DNA of 45,820 nucleotides from Chloroflexota bacterium (GTDB lineage Bacteria; Chloroflexota; Anaerolineae; JAAYEA01). The notes beneath the pieces are model-generated. The model ran no database searches and had not been told where the DNA came from. It saw only the letters and a list, made by a program, of their open reading frames with translations. This document shows, one piece after another, positions 8,052 to 17,096 of this stretch. Each line of letters begins with the position of its first letter. The first letter of the stretch is position 1. The stretch spans positions 1 through 45,820 of the forward strand of contig JAAYEA010000018.1 of the NCBI GenBank assembly GCA_012689325.1. Reading direction: 5' to 3'. The position numbers and the translations under genes are program-made.

Positions 8052-8510
8052 TCATTCCGCGTCCGCAGCCAGGCGCGCCAAGCGCCCTCGGATGCGCAGC
8101 ACCAGCTCGCCCGGCGATAGTACCGCAACGGACGCATGCCCGGGCTGAAAGTGTCGCGCATTGAAAGTGGCCAGCCAAGCACAGCCTTCCCTGATGGCGG
8201 CAACCAGAATAGGCAAATCCTTGGGGTCCGCCAGGCCCGCATAAGCGTCCAGGTCGGCCGGCTGGGGGTCCGCAATCACCCTGAGGCTACGGCTAACCAG
8301 CAGCCGGAAGGCGGGCAGCGCACGAGGCAGCTTGTCCTCGAGATTGCGTTCCACCTCATCGATGACCTGCTGAGAGGTAACCGCATCGATCAGCGTGATC
8401 TCGCCCAGGCGAAGGATCACCAAGCTGGCACCATGTTCGCTGGGAGAGGCCGCCCCCGCAAAGAGCACATCCGCATCCACAAAGACGCGCGGCTTAGGAG
8501 GTGGAGCCAT
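8052..8510 (-). CDS. PIN-domain toxin, VapC-type
   Basis: A 152-residue PIN-domain protein. The conserved acidic residues are visible: Asp in VFVDADVLF (~9-17), Glu in VIDEVERN (~49-56), and Asp in ADPKDLPILVAA (~92-103). The LATFNARHF segment (~111-119) occupies the usual fourth-acid region. PIN toxins are ribonucleases that cut tRNA or rRNA. The gene overlaps the 3' end of the antitoxin gene by 17 bases, the usual order and coupling for vapBC. It is slightly longer than a typical VapC (about 130). A PIN protein in a housekeeping role cannot be excluded, but the AbrB partner argues for a toxin. Confidence 0.75.
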   Translation of the reverse strand: MAPPPKPRVFVDADVLFAGAASPSEHGASLVILRLGEITLIDAVTSQQVIDEVERNLEDKLPRALPAFRLLVSRSLRVIADPQPADLDAYAGLADPKDLPILVAAIREGCAWLATFNARHFQPGHASVAVLSPGELVLRIRGRLARLAADAE

Positions 8511-8766
8511 AGCGCTCCTGATATGCTTTCTCGCGCTGCGCGCGCAGGCTGTCCAGCATCTCTTCCACGCTCAGCCCTGCGTCCAGGCGCAGGCGCTCGA
8601 TCTCGCGCGCCAGCTCGGGAACCATCGGAACCATCGGCGTCAGCACAAGAATCCCGTCGAGGTCAACTAGCCGGAAACTATCGCCCTCTTCGATGCCGTA
8701 TTTGTCCCGCAGGCTGGCGGGCAGGGTCAACACGCCTCGCTTGCGAACCTGGATCGTTGCATCCAT
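8494..8766 (-). CDS. AbrB/MazE-type antitoxin, VapB-like
   Basis: A 90-residue protein. The start at 8766 is chosen because GGAGGT lies 7 bases upstream; an in-frame ATG at 8799 has no such site. The N-terminal half, MDATIQVRKRGVLTLPASLR followed by DKYGIEEGDSF, is a SpoVT/AbrB DNA-binding domain (about 1-45). The C-terminal half, with REIERLRLDAGLSVEEML, is helical and charged, and would wrap the toxin. VapB antitoxins of this type bind and repress their own promoter and neutralise the PIN toxin. The promoter at 8811-8839 lies 45 bases upstream and probably contains the operator. Confidence 0.8.
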   Translation of the reverse strand: MDATIQVRKRGVLTLPASLRDKYGIEEGDSFRLVDLDGILVLTPMVPMVPELAREIERLRLDAGLSVEEMLDSLRAQREKAYQERYGSTS

Positions 8767-8810
8767 ATCGCCTACCTCCGGCAGCTTTTCAGCTTGCACC
8801 GATTTTCTGC

Positions 8811-10352: not shown

Positions 10353-11540
10353 TTGCAAAGAGAGGCTCAGAAAACAGCTCAGGCCTGTAAGAACCTTGTC
10401 CTGGAGCGCGCCCGGGTTCGCGGTTTTATCACCGTTAGCGAAATCCTGGAAGCGCTTCCAGAAGAGGAGCGGCATTCCCGCCGCGTGAACGAGTTCTTCC
10501 TTTCCCTCTTTGAGGAGGGTGTCGAGGTGATCAACGACGAGGCGATCGACTGCGCAGAGCAGGCTGCTGACTCGCTTGATGGCGACAATGAACAGGCGCC
10601 AGGCGGTAAAGAGGGATACGACCTGGCCGCAATCCCCAGTGATGACACGATCAGCTTGTATTTGGGCGAGATGGGCCGGGTGCCGCTGCTCAAGCCAGAA
10701 GAGGAGCGCGACCTGGCTCAAAAGATCCAGCGGGGGCAGATTGCACAACGCAAGCTGAGCGATAATGGCCAAGACCCCGACGAGGTGGCGCGTCTGGCCG
10801 AGGATATCAACCGGGCCGACGAGGCGCGCGCCCACCTTATCAAAGCCAACACCCGCCTGGTGATCAGCATCGCCAAGCGGTACATGGGGCAAGGCGTCCC
10901 CTTCCCCGATTTGATCCAGGAGGGCAACCTAGGGCTGATCCGCGCCGTGGAAAAGTTTGACTATCGGCGCGGCTTCAAGTTCAGCACCTATGCGACCTGG
11001 TGGATTCGCCAGGCCGTGACGCGCTCCCTGGCCGAGCAAGGCCGGCTGATCCGCCTTCCCGTGCACATGGGCGAAAAGATCCGCCGGTTGCAGCGCACCG
11101 CCCGTCAGATGGAGCAGGAAGAGGGCCGGCGCCCGACCATGACCGAGCTGGCCGAGGCCGTGGGCCTCAAGCCGCGCAAGGTCAAGCTGCTGCTGCGCAT
11201 GGCCCAGCGCCCAACCTCCCTGGAAAAGCCGGTGGGCGAGGATGAGGATAGCGTCTTTGGCGATTTCCTGCCCGATGAAGACGCCGAAAGCCCCTCCGAT
11301 TCGGCCTACCAGCAGTTGCTCTCCGATAGCCTGGAGGATATCCTCAACACACTCTCGCCGCGGGAGGCCCGCATTCTGAGGCTGCGCTTCGGCTTGCAGG
11401 ATGGCCGCAGCTATACCCTGCGCGAAGTGGGCGAAAAGTTTGGCCTGACGCGAGAGCGCATCCGCCAGATCGAGCGCGACGCGCTGCGCCGGCTGCGCCA
11501 CCCCACCCGCAGCAGGCGGCTGAAAGAGTATTTGCGCTAG
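10353..11540 (+). CDS. rpoD: primary RNA polymerase sigma factor (sigma70 family)
   Basis: A 395-residue sigma70 factor. The start is TTG at 10353, 5 bases after GGAGGAG (10341-10347); no in-frame ATG serves better. The domains are a short region 1.1-like N-terminus (~15-60, [14 protein letters not shown]), region 1.2 (~90-125, [14 protein letters not shown]), and region 2 (~165-235). Region 2 includes the core-binding [19 protein letters not shown] and the -10-recognising [15 protein letters not shown]. Regions 3 (~245-320) and 4 (~325-395) follow, region 4 with the helix-turn-helix [20 protein letters not shown]. All regions of a housekeeping sigma are present. It directs RNA polymerase to promoters such as the TTGACA/TATAAT pairs seen here. 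A hairpin follows the stop. Confidence 0.9.
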
Positions 11541-11570
11541 TGATCAATGGCGCGCTGCCCAGTATAAAAC

Positions 11571-11606
11571 CCAAGCCCTCGGCCCGACACTGTGCCGAGG
11601 GCTTGG
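11571..11606 (+). terminator. terminator-like hairpin after the sigma-factor gene
   Basis: A perfect 13-bp stem, CCAAGCCCTCGGC (11571-11583) and GCCGAGGGCTTGG (11594-11606), has a 10-base loop and starts 30 bases after the rpoD stop. There is no immediate T-run, so termination may need help. The next promoter begins at 11653. Confidence 0.6.
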
Positions 11607-11652
11607 CTGTCCGCGTCACGTCCGCGCGGGCGGAAAGAGCCTTTTTCGATAT

Positions 11653-11681
11653 TTGACAGCGCCCCCAACTTGTGCTATACT
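11653..11681 (+). promoter_or_regulatory. promoter of the lysW operon
   Basis: TTGACA (11653-11658) and TATACT (11676-11681) are separated by 17 bases. The predicted start is near 11688, which places about 209 bases of leader in front of lysW, including a small reading frame and a terminator-like hairpin. Confidence 0.75.
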
Positions 11682-11710
11682 CGCCGAAAAGGTCACTTGG
11701 AGAGTTCAGC

Positions 11711-11800
11711 GTGCACTCAATCGCTTGCGTGGCGATCCGACGATCCCGATCCAGCTCGTCCTCGAGTCCGGAGGAAGAGATCGTGTCGTCGTGTGACTGA
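11711..11800 (+). CDS. candidate leader peptide of the lysW operon, 29 codons
   Basis: A GTG start at 11711 lies 6 bases after GGAGAG (11699-11704), and the frame runs to TGA at 11798-11800. The peptide is MHSIACVAIRRSR followed by six serines, then PEEEIVSSCD. Codons 10, 11 and 13 are all CGA arginine, a codon rarely used in the neighbouring GC-rich genes, which prefer CGC and CGG. The frame lies wholly inside the predicted leader RNA, upstream of a terminator hairpin. This is the arrangement of an attenuation leader peptide. It is very short, so chance is possible. The Ser-richness means arginine is not the only candidate signal. Confidence 0.4.
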   Translation: MHSIACVAIRRSRSSSSSSPEEEIVSSCD

Positions 11801-11828
11801 ACGCTCGCTGATACCAGCTTGCAGCCAC

Positions 11829-11875
11829 AGCCGGCCCTCTGGACTAGAACCAGCCAGGAGCCGGCTATTTTATTG
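11829..11875 (+). terminator. candidate attenuator hairpin upstream of lysW
   Basis: AGCCGG (11829-11834) pairs with CCGGCT (11861-11866). The upper stem pairs CTCTGG (11837-11842) with CCAG-AG (11854-11860, one bulged G). ATTTTATTG follows immediately. It lies 10 bases before the lysW Shine-Dalgarno, so it would stop transcription before the operon. The left arm CCTCTGGACT (11836-11845) can instead pair with AGTCCGGAGG (11765-11774), giving nine Watson-Crick pairs and one G-U. That would act as an antiterminator. Confidence 0.5.
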
Positions 11876-11896
11876 CACCAGCACAGGAGGAACAGA

Positions 11897-12064
11897 ATGA
11901 AAACAGAATGCCCGGAATGCGTCGCCGAGCTTGAACTGAGCGAAACCCTGGAAGAGGGCGAGATCATCGTCTGCCCCGATTGCGGCGTCGAGCTTGAGGT
12001 GATCTCGGTGGACCCCTTGGTCCTGGAGATGGCCCCCGAAGAAGCTGAGGACTGGGGAGAATAA
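11897..12064 (+). CDS. lysW: LysW amino-group carrier protein
   Basis: A 55-residue acidic protein. The ATG at 11897 follows CAGGAGG by 6 bases; the frame extends upstream to 11819 but without a ribosome site. It has a small zinc ribbon with Cys pairs CPEC (5-8) and CPDC (26-29), and it ends in the diagnostic EDWGE. The gamma-carboxyl of the C-terminal Glu55 is joined to the amino group of alpha-aminoadipate or glutamate by LysX, keeping the amino group blocked through the later steps. It is the first gene of a complete lysW-X-Y-Z-J-K set, which makes the assignment secure even at this length. Confidence 0.92.
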
Positions 12065-12079
12065 TCCCTGGAGGATTAG

Positions 12080-12925
12080 ATGAAGATCGGCGTTCTGCTT
12101 TCGCGGCTGCGCATCGAAGAAAAGTTGATCTTCCAGGCCCTGCGAGATCGCGGGGTCGATTTCGAGCGCATCGAGGACGGCGACCTGGCCCTCGATCCCG
12201 CCCAACCTCGCTTCACCGAATATGACGCCGTCTGGTGCCGGTCGCTGAGCCACAGCCGCGCCCTGTACGCGCTAAGCGTCATGGAAAGCTGGGGGCTCAA
12301 GACGATCAACACGTACGAGGTGATCAGCGCCTGCGGCGACAAGATCATCACCACCACGGCCCTGGTCAAGGCAGGCATCCCCTCGCCCAGAACCGTCGTC
12401 GCGTTCAGCATCGAGTCCGCCCTGGCCACGCTGGACGAGATGGGCTATCCCGCCGTCCTCAAGCCGGCGGTAGGGTCCTGGGGGCGGCTGCTCGCCAAGG
12501 TGAACGACCGCGACGCCGCGGAGGCGATCCTGGAGCACAAGCAGACCCTGGGCGGCTACCAGCACTCGATCTTTTACCTCCAGGAGTACGTCGATAAACC
12601 CCAACGCGATATCCGCGTCATCGTGATCGGCGATGCGGCCATCTGCGCCATCTATCGCCAATCGCCCCACTGGATCACCAACACGGCCCGCGGCGGCGAG
12701 GCGATGCTCTGCGAGCTATCGCCCGAGCTCAACGATCTGGCGGTGCGCGCGGCCCAGGCGATGGGCGGCGGCATCCTGGCCGTGGACCTGCTGGAAGATA
12801 GCGATGGCCGCCTGTTGGTGAGCGAGGTCAACCACACGCCCGAATTCCACGGGGCCATCCAGGTGGCGGGCGTGGATATCCCCGCCAAAATGGTGGATTA
12901 CGTGCTGCGGGTGGCGGAATCCTAG
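12080..12925 (+). CDS. lysX: LysX, LysW-alpha-aminoadipate ligase (ATP-grasp)
   Basis: A 281-residue ATP-grasp ligase of the RimK/LysX group. The N-terminal domain begins MKIGVLLSRLRIEEKLI. The ATP-binding central part has AVLKPAVGSWGRLLAKV (~131-147) and LQEYVDKPQRDIRVIVIGD (~168-186). The catalytic end has MGGGILAVDLLED (~231-243) and EVNHTPEFHGAI (~251-262). From memory of Thermus LysX, the EVNHTxEF signature looks like the aminoadipate-type ligase rather than the glutamate-type ArgX, but a bifunctional enzyme is possible. It joins the amino group of the substrate to the LysW C-terminal glutamate using ATP. It follows lysW by 15 bases with a GGAGG site. Confidence 0.9.
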   Translation: MKIGVLLSRLRIEEKLIFQALRDRGVDFERIEDGDLALDPAQPRFTEYDAVWCRSLSHSRALYALSVMESWGLKTINTYEVISACGDKIITTTALVKAGIPSPRTVVAFSIESALATLDEMGYPAVLKPAVGSWGRLLAKVNDRDAAEAILEHKQTLGGYQHSIFYLQEYVDKPQRDIRVIVIGDAAICAIYRQSPHWITNTARGGEAMLCELSPELNDLAVRAAQAMGGGILAVDLLEDSDGRLLVSEVNHTPEFHGAIQVAGVDIPAKMVDYVLRVAES

Positions 12926-12977
12926 CCCCCTCCGCAACGCCCGAGTGGATCAAGAAGCCTATTACGGAGGAAAAGCT

Positions 12978-14015
12978 ATGCTCAAGGTTGCCATCGCCGG
13001 CGGCTCCGGCTATGCAGGCGGGGAGCTGTTGCGGCTCCTGCTCCAGCACCCGCAGACCGAGGTCGTCGCCGCCACGTCCCAATCCTACTTTGGCCAGCCC
13101 ATCTATCTGGTGCACCCCAACCTGCGCGGGCGCACCGAGCTCAAGTTCTGCCTGCTCGAGGACCTGCCCAAGGTGGACGTGCTTTTCGTCGGCTTTCCCC
13201 ATGGCGAGGTCGCCCCGCGCATCGAGCAGTTCGCCGCGCTGGCGGATCGCGTGGTGGACCTGAGCGGCGACTTTCGCCTGCATGACCCCGCCCTCTATGC
13301 CAAGTGGTACGAGCACCAGCACCCCTGCCCGGAGTGGCTGCCCCGCTTCGTCTATGGCCTCCCCGAGTTCCATCGTGAGGAGCTGCGCGGCGCCAAGTAC
13401 GCCAGCGGCGTGGGCTGCAACGCCACCGTGGTCAACCTGGCGCTCTATCCCCTCTTCAAGGCCGGGATCGTCGAGCGCGCCGTGACCGAGGTCAAGGTTG
13501 GCTCGTCCGAGGGCGGCAACAAGGAAACCCCTGGCTCGCATCACCCGGAACGCGCCCATGTCGTGCGCTCCTATGCCCCCACCACCCACCGCCACGTCGG
13601 CGAGTTGGAGCAAGAGCTGGCCTTCCATGGCCAGACGCCCAAGATCCACATGTCCATCACCTCGGTGGAGCTGGTGCGCGGCGCCATGGCCACCTCCCAT
13701 TGTTTCCTGAAGCAAGACCTGGAGGACCGCGACGTCTGGAAGCTCTATCGCGAGGCCTATGGCAGCGAGCCGTTCATCCGCATCGTCAAGGTCCGACGCG
13801 GCCTCTATCGCTACCCCGAGCCCAAGATCCTGGCGGGCTCTAACTATTGCGACATCGGCTTTGAGAAAGAGACCGGCACGGATCGGCTGGTGGTCATGTC
13901 CGCCATCGACAACCTGATGAAGGGCGCGGCGGGCACGGCGGTGCAAGCGATGAACGTGATGTGCGGCTTCCCCGAGGTCGCCGGGTTGGAATTCCCCGGC
14001 TTGCACCCCATTTAG
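12978..14015 (+). CDS. lysY: LysY/ArgC-type LysW-aminoacyl-phosphate reductase
   Basis: A 345-residue NADPH-dependent semialdehyde dehydrogenase. The ATG at 12978 follows CGGAGG, and MLKVAIAGGSGYAGGELLRL is the NADP-binding Rossmann start. The catalytic cysteine is Cys147 in ASGVGCNATVVN. PHGEVAPR (~76) and SSEGGNKETPGSHHPER (~176-192) match the ArgC/LysY family. It reduces the LysW-bound aminoadipyl (or glutamyl) phosphate to the semialdehyde. Homology alone does not separate it from ArgC, but the flanking lysW, lysX and lysZ indicate the carrier-bound version. Confidence 0.9.
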   Translation: MLKVAIAGGSGYAGGELLRLLLQHPQTEVVAATSQSYFGQPIYLVHPNLRGRTELKFCLLEDLPKVDVLFVGFPHGEVAPRIEQFAALADRVVDLSGDFRLHDPALYAKWYEHQHPCPEWLPRFVYGLPEFHREELRGAKYASGVGCNATVVNLALYPLFKAGIVERAVTEVKVGSSEGGNKETPGSHHPERAHVVRSYAPTTHRHVGELEQELAFHGQTPKIHMSITSVELVRGAMATSHCFLKQDLEDRDVWKLYREAYGSEPFIRIVKVRRGLYRYPEPKILAGSNYCDIGFEKETGTDRLVVMSAIDNLMKGAAGTAVQAMNVMCGFPEVAGLEFPGLHPI

Positions 14016-14072
14016 GACAAGAGGCTGGCGCGGCCCCTGGGCCGCGAAGGCTTGACAGGAGGGATAGGGCGT

Positions 14073-14876
14073 ATGCTAGTTGTCAAGGTAGGCGGCGGCG
14101 AAGGCATCGGCTTTGATGCGCTGTGCCAGGACGTGGCCGCCCTGGTCAAGAGCGGCCAAAAGCTGGTCCTGGTCCACGGCGGCTCCCACGAGACCAACGT
14201 GATCTCGACCGCGCTGGGCAAGCCCCCGCGCTTTGTGACCTCGATTTCGGGCTATCAGAGCCGCTACACCGACCGCGAGACGCTAGAGATCTTTGCCATG
14301 GTCACCGCGGGCAAGATCAACAAGCTGCTGGTGGAAAAGCTGCAACAGGTGGGCGTCAACGCGGTGGGCCTTTCCGGGGCCGATGGCCGCTTGGTGCAGG
14401 CCGCCCGCAAGTCGGTGCTCAAGATCGTGGAGGACGGCAAGCGCAAGGTGCTGCGCGGCGACTGGAGCGGCACGCCCGAAGCCGTCAACACGGACCTGCT
14501 CAACCTCTTGCTGGAGCAGGGCTACACGCCCGTGATCGCGCCGGTGGCCCTGAGCGCCGAGTCCGAGATGGTCAACGTGGACGCCGACCGCATGGCGGCG
14601 GTGGTGGCCATGGCCATGAAAGCCGAGGCGCTATTGCTCCTTTCCAACGTGCCCGGGCTCCTGGCCAATTTCCCCGATGAAAGCTCGCTGGTGACCAACC
14701 TGCCGCGGCACCGCCTGGCCCAGGGCCTGGAATACGCCCAAGGCCGGATGAAGAAAAAGATCATGGGCGCGCAGGAAGCGCTGGAAGGCGGCGTGGGCAA
14801 GGTCATCATTGCCGACGCTCGCGTGGAATCGCCCATCTCGGGCGCCATGGCTGGAAAAGGAACGGTGATCCAATGA
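14073..14876 (+). CDS. lysZ: LysZ, LysW-aminoadipate / LysW-glutamate kinase
   Basis: A 267-residue amino-acid kinase of the N-acetylglutamate kinase family. The ATG at 14073 follows AGGAGGG by 9 bases; the upstream in-frame TTG at 14052 is rejected. MLVVKVGGGEG (1-11) is the ATP-phosphate lysine loop and LVHGGSHETN (~37-46) is the substrate loop. NVDADRMAAVVAMAM (~169-183) and the C-terminal RMKKKIMGAQEALEGGV segment (~226-242) complete the fold. It phosphorylates the side-chain carboxyl of LysW-bound substrate before the LysY reduction. Its stop overlaps the lysJ start (ATGA). Confidence 0.9.
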   Translation: MLVVKVGGGEGIGFDALCQDVAALVKSGQKLVLVHGGSHETNVISTALGKPPRFVTSISGYQSRYTDRETLEIFAMVTAGKINKLLVEKLQQVGVNAVGLSGADGRLVQAARKSVLKIVEDGKRKVLRGDWSGTPEAVNTDLLNLLLEQGYTPVIAPVALSAESEMVNVDADRMAAVVAMAMKAEALLLLSNVPGLLANFPDESSLVTNLPRHRLAQGLEYAQGRMKKKIMGAQEALEGGVGKVIIADARVESPISGAMAGKGTVIQ

Positions 14877-16063
14877 GCATGACCCCCCTGCCCACCACCA
14901 ACCAGGAAACCTATGAGCTAGAGATGCGCCATGGCAGCGGCCTCTATCAGACGCGGCCGGTGGCCCTGGTGCGCGGCCTGGGAGCGACCCTCTGGGACGC
15001 CGACGGCAACGAGTACCTCGATTGCATCGGCGGGCATGGCGTGGTCAACGTCGGGCACTGCAACCCCGACGTGGTGGCGGCGATCCAGGCCCAGGCGGCC
15101 AAGCTGATCACCTGCCCGACCAGTTTTCCCAACGAGCACCGCGCGGCCCTCATGGCCGACCTGGTGAGCATCGCCCCCGGCAAGATGGAACGCGTCTTTT
15201 TCTGCAACTCGGGCGCCGAGGCGGTGGAAGCGGCGTTCAAGTTCGCGCGCATGTCCACCGGACGCACCGGCATCATCGCCGCCAAGAACGCCTTTCACGG
15301 GCGGACCATGGGCGCGCTCTCGGCCACCTGGAACTCGGCCTATAAAAAGCCCTTCGAGCCGCTGGTCCCCGGCTTTAGCCACGTCGCGCCCAACGACATC
15401 GCCGCCCTGGAAGAGGCCATCACCGACGACACCGCGGCGGTGATCCTGGAGCCGGTGCAGGGCGAAAGCGGCGTCCGCCCGCTGGACGGCGATTACCTGC
15501 GGGCCGCGCAAGCGCTCTGCCGCCAGCGCGGCGCGCTCTTTATCGCCGACGAGATCCAGACCGGCTTTGGCCGCACCGGCAAGATGTTCACCTGCGAGCA
15601 TTACGGCCTGGAGCCCGACCTGCTGTGCATGGCCAAGTCCATCGCCGGCGGCGTGCCCATGGGCGGCGTGCTCATCGGGCCGCGGGTCGGGGAGCTGGCC
15701 AGCCAGTCCCACGGCACCACCTTTGGCGGCAGCGCCCTGGCCTGCGCCGCGGCGCGGGCGGCCATCAACTATATCGTCAGCCACAAGCTGCCGGAGCGGG
15801 CCGCCGAGATGGGCGCCTATTTCCTGGAGCAGCTGCGCCGGATCGACTCGCCGGTCATCCGCGAGGTGCGCGGCCTGGGGTTGATGATCGGCGTCGAGCT
15901 CAAAAAGCGCTCCGGCGAGTACCTCGCCAAGCTGATGCAGGAGCACCGCGTCCTGGCCCTGGCCGCCGGCCCCCTGGTCATCCGCTATCTGCCGCCGCTG
16001 GTGATCAGCAAGGAGCAGATCGATCGCGCGGTGGAGGCCACGGCCCATGTCCTCGCAGAGTAA
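14873..16063 (+). CDS. lysJ: LysJ, LysW-semialdehyde aminotransferase
   Basis: A 396-residue class III PLP aminotransferase (acetylornithine aminotransferase family, the usual length). [15 protein letters not shown] (~109-123) is the phosphate-binding region, [14 protein letters not shown] (~223-236) has the PLP-contacting Asp, and the Schiff-base lysine is about residue 255 in [29 protein letters not shown]-type residues follow at ~283-296. It aminates the LysW-bound semialdehyde to LysW-lysine (or LysW-ornithine) with glutamate as donor. It overlaps lysZ by 4 bases and lysK by 17 bases, so the three are coupled. Confidence 0.9.
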
Positions 16064-17096
16064 CGCCGACGAGATCATGCTCCTGCGGGAGATGCTCGAG
16101 ATCTATAGCCCCACCGGGCAGGAAGAAGAGATCTCGGCCTATCTCGTGGGTAAGTTCAGGGCGCTGGGCTTTCGCGCCCACCAGGATTCCGTGGGCAACG
16201 TCATCGGCAGCCTGGGCAACGGCGATTCCGAGATCGTGCTGCTGGGCCACATGGACACCGTGGGCGGCTTTCTCCCCGTCCGGCAATTGGAGGGGCAGCT
16301 CTACGGGCGCGGAGCGGTGGACGCCAAGGGGCCGCTGGCCGCGTTCATCGCCGCGGCGGCGCGGGTGGGCGCGCTGCCGGGCAAGCGCATCACCGTCATC
16401 GGCGTGGTCGAGGAGGAGTCCAGCTCGCGGGGCGCGCGGTCGCTGGTGGGCAACTATGCGCCTCAGTGCGTGATCATCGGCGAGCCAAGCCATTGGGAGC
16501 ACATCACCCTGGGCTACAAGGGCCGCCTGCTGGTGCGCTACCTCCTCTCCTCGCGGGTGCGCCATAGCTCCGCCGAAGGGCCGTCCGCCTCGGAGCGGGC
16601 CGTCAACTTTTGGAACGCCATGGTCCAGTACATCGACGAGCTGAACGGCGGCGAGCGCAACCGCTTTCACACCCTGGACCCCTTCCTCAAGCGCATCACC
16701 TCCAGCGACGGCGCCTTTGCCGAAGAGGTGGTGATGGACATCTCGCTGCGCGTCCCCTTTGGCGTGGACATCCCCGCCTTTAAGGAAAAGATGCGCTCGC
16801 TGGCCGGCGAAGCGGCGGTGGGGTTCAGCGGCGAGGACGTGCCCTATCGCGAATCCAAGAACAACCCCCTGGTGCGGGCCTTTCTCAAAGCCATCCGCAA
16901 AGGGGAAGGCGAGCCGATGTTCAAGCTCAAGCTCGGCACCTCGGACATGAACACCGTGGGGCCAGTGTGGCAGTGCCCCATCGTCGCCTATGGCCCCGGC
17001 GATTCCTCCCTGGACCATACGCCCGACGAGCATGTGGATATCGGCGAGTACATGAAGGCGATCGACGTGCTCAGCGAAGTGTTGAGGACGCTCTAG
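16047..17096 (+). CDS. lysK: LysK, LysW-lysine / LysW-ornithine hydrolase
   Basis: A 349-residue M20-family zinc carboxypeptidase. Metal and catalytic residues are in [11 protein letters not shown] (~66-76, His and Asp), [16 protein letters not shown] (~86-101, bridging Asp) and [12 protein letters not shown] (~118-129, general base and metal Glu). VIIGEPSHW (~139-147) matches the family, and GTSDMNTVG (~296-304) replaces the usual C-terminal ligand area. It releases free lysine or ornithine from the LysW carrier, the last step of the pathway. The gene begins inside the end of lysJ. The first enzymes of the aminoadipate route (homocitrate synthase, homoaconitase) are not in the window. Confidence 0.9.

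Follow-up and report, generated by a model that had tools for sequence, protein, structure and literature searches.

The genes of LysW-dependent pathways are hard to assign to lysine or to arginine by sequence alone, because the two routes have a common ancestry. The stretch of DNA analysed here (45,820 nucleotides, contig JAAYEA010000018.1 of a Chloroflexota bacterium, called the window below) is a case in point: a small reading frame and a hairpin lie between a promoter and lysW. Is this leader an attenuator, which amino acid does it sense, and what does the operon behind it make? From its sequence, its modelled folding and comparison with relatives, we consider it very probable that the leader works by ribosome-mediated transcription attenuation, with charged tRNA-Arg as its signal and a LysW/ArgX operon for ornithine and arginine as its target.

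Parts of the leader and their modelled folding

The leader and the operon consist of the following features, all on the plus strand:

11653-11681, plus: sigma-70-type promoter TTGACA-17-TATACT with extended TG (read directly; spacing and TTGTGCTATACT also present in the relative G001)
11699-11704, plus: Shine-Dalgarno sequence of the leader peptide, GGAGAG (read directly)
11711-11800, plus: leader peptide frame VHSIACVAIRRSRSSSSSSPEEEIVSSCD, 29 codons from a GTG start to a TGA stop at 11798-11800 (read directly; counterpart MACSLVNLIVRRRKPALVLEGLDFAAD in G001)
11738-11749, plus: putative sensor codons CGA CGA TCC CGA (Arg Arg Ser Arg), CGA being a rare codon
11739-11790, plus: protector hairpin, pairing 11739-11744 with 11785-11790, 11747-11751 with 11779-11783 and 11759-11763 with 11771-11775 (minimum-energy fold)
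11765-11774, plus: antiterminator strand AGTCCGGAGG, with its partner CCTCTGGACT at 11836-11845 (nine Watson-Crick pairs and one G-U)
11829-11874, plus: intrinsic terminator, hairpin 11829-11866 and tail ATTTTATT (counterpart in G001)
11885-11891, plus: Shine-Dalgarno sequence of lysW, AGGAGGA (read directly)
11897-12064, plus: lysW, amino-group carrier protein with C-terminal EDWGE (NCBIfam TIGR01206, above cut-off)
12080-12925, plus: lysX/argX ligase with the ArgX-type motif TPEFHGA (LysX family match; motif compared with 3vpb and 1uc8/3vpd)
12945-14015, plus: argC/lysY-type reductase (TIGR01850, above cut-off)
14052-14876, plus: lysZ/argB-type kinase (NF010659, above cut-off)
14873-16063, plus: lysJ/argD-type aminotransferase (TIGR00707, above cut-off)
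16047-17096, plus: lysK/argE-type [LysW]-hydrolase (NF003367, above cut-off)

The promoter, with TTGACA at 11653-11658 and TATACT at 11676-11681, is the single sigma-70-like site between 11540 and 11900 (shuffled sequences 0.0 ± 0.2), and it is followed by a short frame with a ribosome site; G001 keeps both. Promoter, ribosome site, frame, protector, antiterminator and terminator were all read directly at the positions that a first-pass annotation had given them. The CGA codons it had located at 11738-11749 are present three times, but the span includes one TCC.

The choice of codon is exceptional. In 11 window genes CGA accounts for 10 of 315 arginine codons (3%), in the leader for three of three (P = 3e-5). 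The pair CGA CGA does not occur in the 4333 codons of these genes, which gives an expectation of 1.5e-4 per 29 codons. CGA usage is 11/11 in Arg-type clusters versus 3/29 in Lys-type leaders. The clustered codons of the window leader specify the presumed product of an operon with an ArgX-type ligase.

Two further features lie just upstream of the leader: a gene for a primary-type sigma factor (10353-11540, plus strand) and, after it, a strong inverted repeat (11571-11587) whose T-run is confined to the minus strand. Elsewhere in the window, a PIN-domain protein adjoins a MazE/AbrB-like protein (8052-8799, minus strand), probably as a toxin-antitoxin pair.

The hairpin ahead of lysW, the first gene, has a folding energy of −21.6 kcal/mol and is followed by a U-run, although this tail is interrupted (AUUUUAUU); the hairpin was missed by a simple terminator scan. 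The pairing of AGTCCGGAGG with CCTCTGGACT, proposed in the first-pass annotation, was borne out and scores p = 0.02 against shuffles; its antiterminator strand lies mid-frame, 23 nt ahead of the stop codon. The pairing of TCCTC (11759-11763) with GAGGA (11771-11775) likewise stands, as part of a protector that is longer in the minimum-energy fold of the whole leader than had been described, so that the CGA codons themselves form its 5' strand.

Folding of the whole leader at equilibrium was rejected as a model of the switch: the terminator nearly always wins, and the antiterminator reaches at most 0.17, at codons 13-14 only. The switch must therefore depend on the order of folding, and it was instead modelled on transcripts cut short ahead of the terminator's 3' arm, with the region under the ribosome masked. 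On these truncated transcripts the antiterminator forms with a probability of 0.92-0.99 if the A site holds any of codons 10-13; the value is about 0 at codons 16-26 and 0.00-0.04 when no ribosome is present. A modelled stall at codons 14-15 (TCC, AGC) frees the antiterminator as well. The two states anticipated earlier both appear, dependent on the ribosome, in truncated transcripts, whereas full-length equilibrium yields almost only the terminator. None of 200 shuffles of 11750-11828 reproduced the stall-dependent switch, for which the native sequence gives about 0.96 stalled at CGA and 0.04 ribosome-free. By folding, protector, antiterminator and terminator are mutually exclusive and are predicted to respond to ribosome position. 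A ribosome with the stop codon in its A site is also predicted to free the antiterminator (0.76-0.99), so that fast release of the ribosome must be assumed. In the fold, the lower protector stem (11739-11751/11779-11790) is opened by a ribosome that stalls on the first CGA codons; contrary to the earlier suggestion, such a ribosome need not cover TCCTC, and covering would be a partial contribution to the mechanism.

We propose that transcription starts near 11688. With sufficient arginine, the ribosome would clear the CGA codons and depart, the protector (11739-11790) would hide the antiterminator at 11765-11774, the terminator at 11829-11866 would form, and RNA polymerase would halt ahead of lysW. 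When Arg-tRNA is scarce, a ribosome stalled at codons 10-13 would deprive the protector of its 5' strand and so release AGTCCGGAGG, which would capture 11836-11845 while the terminator's 3' arm has yet to be transcribed. The resulting antitermination would allow read-through into lysW-argX-argC-argB-argD-argE.

Ligase type, pathway and leaders of the same cells

The residues after EF place the window ligase (PEFHGA) on the side of Sulfolobus ArgX (PEFKGF) as opposed to Thermus LysX (MEFKNS), if glycine at this site marks ArgX and Asn-Ser marks LysX. A five-residue motif at this site is reported to govern substrate choice in these enzymes, Sulfolobus LysX having Asn-Thr there and ArgX Gly-Phe; in a haloarchaeal ArgX, a swap left specificity unchanged (PMC10433800). 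The window genome has a second ligase of LysX type (MEFRNS) within a lysine cluster, which has its own LysW, LysX and hydrolase and is without a kinase of its own in the stretch read. Only one LysZ/ArgB-type kinase matched in each of the window genome and G001, in the former within the window operon, and neither genome gave a match to ArgJ or DapB, searches in which control genomes gave the expected results. With no ArgJ or DapB found and a single kinase, the window operon is the most likely source of ornithine and arginine, in agreement with the earlier suggestion, also favoured by the ArgX motif, that the pathway makes arginine or ornithine at least in part. Judging from the draft genomes, the kinase, reductase and aminotransferase of this operon probably also serve lysine synthesis.

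G001, the sole genome of the same family in the comparison, belongs to a different genus and is a metagenome bin with 7% contamination; its lysW is 75% identical to that of the window. Upstream of it we find TTGACA-17-TATACT, where TTGTGCTATACT recurs, followed by GGAG, a leader carrying CGA CGA CGA AAG, a terminator hairpin (AGCCGGCCTCTCTGGACT...GAGCCGGCTTTTC) and an antiterminator pairing that exceeds shuffles (p 0.03). Promoter, frame, tandem CGA, antiterminator and terminator are thus retained, while the sequence between the parts has mostly changed and the ten serines of the window peptide are not conserved. Nor is the outer stem 11700-11709/11797-11806, which the first-pass annotation had described and which does exist in the window.

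The same two cells contain further leaders. Ahead of argG, the window genome has MTKQASPKLTVQRSAIRRGRTGPVRRSG, in which IRRGR is encoded by ATC CGA CGA GGC AGG, and G001 has MQTPQITRRRESAVRGT, each followed by a terminator before argG. These leaders with tandem CGA, one per genome, lie at L170:1304-1460 and L169 about 1100-840 (minus strand), and each is a candidate second arginine attenuator of its cell. The lysine clusters of both genomes begin with homocitrate synthase, and their leaders end in EGKKPGP and QGKKPRR, each with a terminator; that of the window genome reads GKKP, with Lys-Lys. Within the same cells, arginine operons therefore carry tandem CGA and the lysine operon AAG AAG. Between the promoter and the frame of the lysine clusters (L160 about 3910-3600 in the window genome, L032 about 7090-6790 in G001, both minus strand) there is an extra hairpin with a U-run, GCGCTC...GAGCGC-TTTTT, possibly an additional terminator ahead of the Lys-Lys leader. 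G001 has two homocitrate synthases of 94% identity (L032 and L156, the latter on a 3 kb contig), which probably reflect a strain mixture in the bin.

Leaders across the Anaerolineae

A search of 160 genomes of the class Anaerolineae found LysW in 108 and yielded 51 leaders, each combining a terminator with a short reading frame that contains an Arg/Lys cluster. Directly before lysW lie 46, three head clusters farther upstream and two precede homocitrate synthase. Operon-internal lysW sites had no leader before lysW; in ArgX-only clusters of one family the leader is farther upstream, as in G013, where the order argG-argH-lysW was read and the leader precedes argG.

Ligases were typed by the residues after EF, with the structures of Sulfolobus ArgX (3vpb) and Thermus LysX (1uc8/3vpd) as anchors. 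The sensor clusters are Arg-rich where ArgX is present and Lys-rich where LysX occurs alone: ArgX-only leaders contain IRRSR (the window), VRRRK, DNRRRPKEP or FKCRRPGKEP, LysX-only examples are TKKQVKKQMPDPGVW, FKKQSKKQKPDRRVW and NKKKCKKQPYSRSG, and two-ligase operons have mixed clusters such as RNSRRARPKRS or RVRKRAKRGQ. Averaged by family, K/(K+R) separates the 6 groups with ArgX completely from the 15 with LysX only (46 leaders typed by motif; U = 0, p = 5e-4), although the gap is narrow, with two Lys groups at 0.44 and 0.50 against an ArgX-group maximum of 0.40. Some loci without a ligase motif, at first called Lys-type, were re-typed with a looser motif, and repeating the test on 46 leaders gave the same result.

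Since choosing frames by ribosome site alone loses some of them, the 51 leaders were picked by visual inspection for frames rich in K/R, which biases the presence of K or R and should not bias K against R. An unbiased frame pick clearly enriched Lys alone (2.3-fold); Arg was not enriched, since Lys-type operons form the majority and Arg also arises in GC-rich shuffles. Pairing of antiterminator and terminator arm reached p<0.05 against shuffles in 32 of 50 leaders (combined p 8e-30, relatedness not removed), and placing the ribosome at the Lys/Arg cluster gave a higher modelled antiterminator than placing it at other positions of the frame (51 leaders, p 5e-9, relatedness not removed). The row for L165 is unreliable, its two candidate terminators (a farther and a nearer one) differing between analyses.

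The comparison, with G001 and about 50 leaders of the class whose codons follow the ArgX/LysX type, supports both the attenuator and the arginine signal of the first-pass annotation. More broadly, we lean towards one attenuator layout across the LysW-pathway operons of the Anaerolineae, in which Lys, Arg or mixed sensor codons follow LysX/ArgX specificity and report the product, and in which the arginine switch of the window lineage would at the same time control enzymes that lysine synthesis uses too. If leader codons do follow the product, selection has in effect annotated the operon in its own leader, in a form readable from uncultured genomes.

Two loci with other affiliations came up as well. 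In CP036434.1 (Planctomycetes bacterium Poly30, outside Chloroflexota; L050:3496-3826) a Lys-rich frame, KSKGKAK, and a terminator lie upstream of lysW, and in DYIS01000018.1 (labelled Ktedonobacter racemifer; L052:3035-3318) a T-box (RF00230, 98.5 bits) precedes lysW in place of a leader peptide.

Alternative readings and known systems

The same attenuator might sense serine, or translation speed in general, as the window peptide has ten Ser codons and modelled stalls at codons 14-15 free the antiterminator too. Yet the G001 leader has a single Ser and keeps CGA CGA CGA, modelled stalls at codons 16-26 leave the antiterminator hidden, and it is R, not S, that the leaders of other Arg operons have in common. 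This largely removes the earlier caveat that the sensed amino acid is uncertain: serine sensing by the window leader is unlikely, and we give this reading as a whole hardly any credence. A leader sensing arginine and lysine together would suit an operon that probably lends its kinase, reductase and aminotransferase to lysine synthesis, given the single LysZ-type kinase found in the genome and the lysine cluster without one of its own in the stretch read. Lys codons lie close to Arg codons in G001 (RRRK), G048 and G013, and two-ligase operons have mixed leaders; the window peptide, however, contains no Lys codon, which makes dual sensing here very improbable.

The frame could also be spurious and untranslated, the terminator then causing a fixed partial termination or being controlled by an ArgR-like protein or a riboswitch. 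In favour of this reading, the total folding energy of the leader is ordinary (z = -1.4). Against this stand the codon bias, the conservation and the class-wide sensor codons. Rfam searches gave no T-box or lysine riboswitch in 11000-12500 at E up to 10, and hence no riboswitch or T-box in the window leader; L002, L160, L169 and L170 likewise have no T-box. We therefore hold a spurious frame to be very improbable and retain the arginine attenuator.

Ribosome-mediated attenuators are classically known from amino-acid operons of the trp, his, thr, ilv, leu and phe types. The window leader resembles the trp/his type in its leader peptide with tandem product codons, protector, antiterminator and intrinsic terminator before the first gene. 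It differs in its proposed arginine sensor, its carrier-protein (LysW) operon, its occurrence in Chloroflexota, where it is predicted from sequence and folding, and its antiterminator, which lies within the frame ahead of the stop codon. The lysine cluster of Thermus thermophilus, also a LysW-pathway cluster, is reportedly subject to leader-peptide attenuation; it makes lysine, whereas the window has an ArgX-type ligase and Arg codons in its leader. The attenuation mechanism is thus textbook; the new part is the arginine/lysine-switchable leader family.

The literature searched contained no report of transcription attenuation by arginine codons in an arginine biosynthesis operon, nor of leader-peptide attenuation from Chloroflexi. 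A comparative survey of Actinobacteria assigns arginine to T-boxes and lysine to a riboswitch, naming attenuators for neither (PMC1262725). T-boxes share control by tRNA charging with the proposed mechanism, and one lysW locus, L052, has one; the window leader does not. Closest in its sensor is orf34 in the Salmonella speF leader, a small upstream frame in which two consecutive Arg codons sense arginine via ribosome pausing (PMC6386406). The window leader likewise has adjacent Arg codons in a short frame ahead of its operon; orf34, however, controls an ornithine decarboxylase via Rho termination, translation and RNase G (PMC6386406), whereas the window leader combines a predicted intrinsic terminator with a probable operon for arginine biosynthesis.
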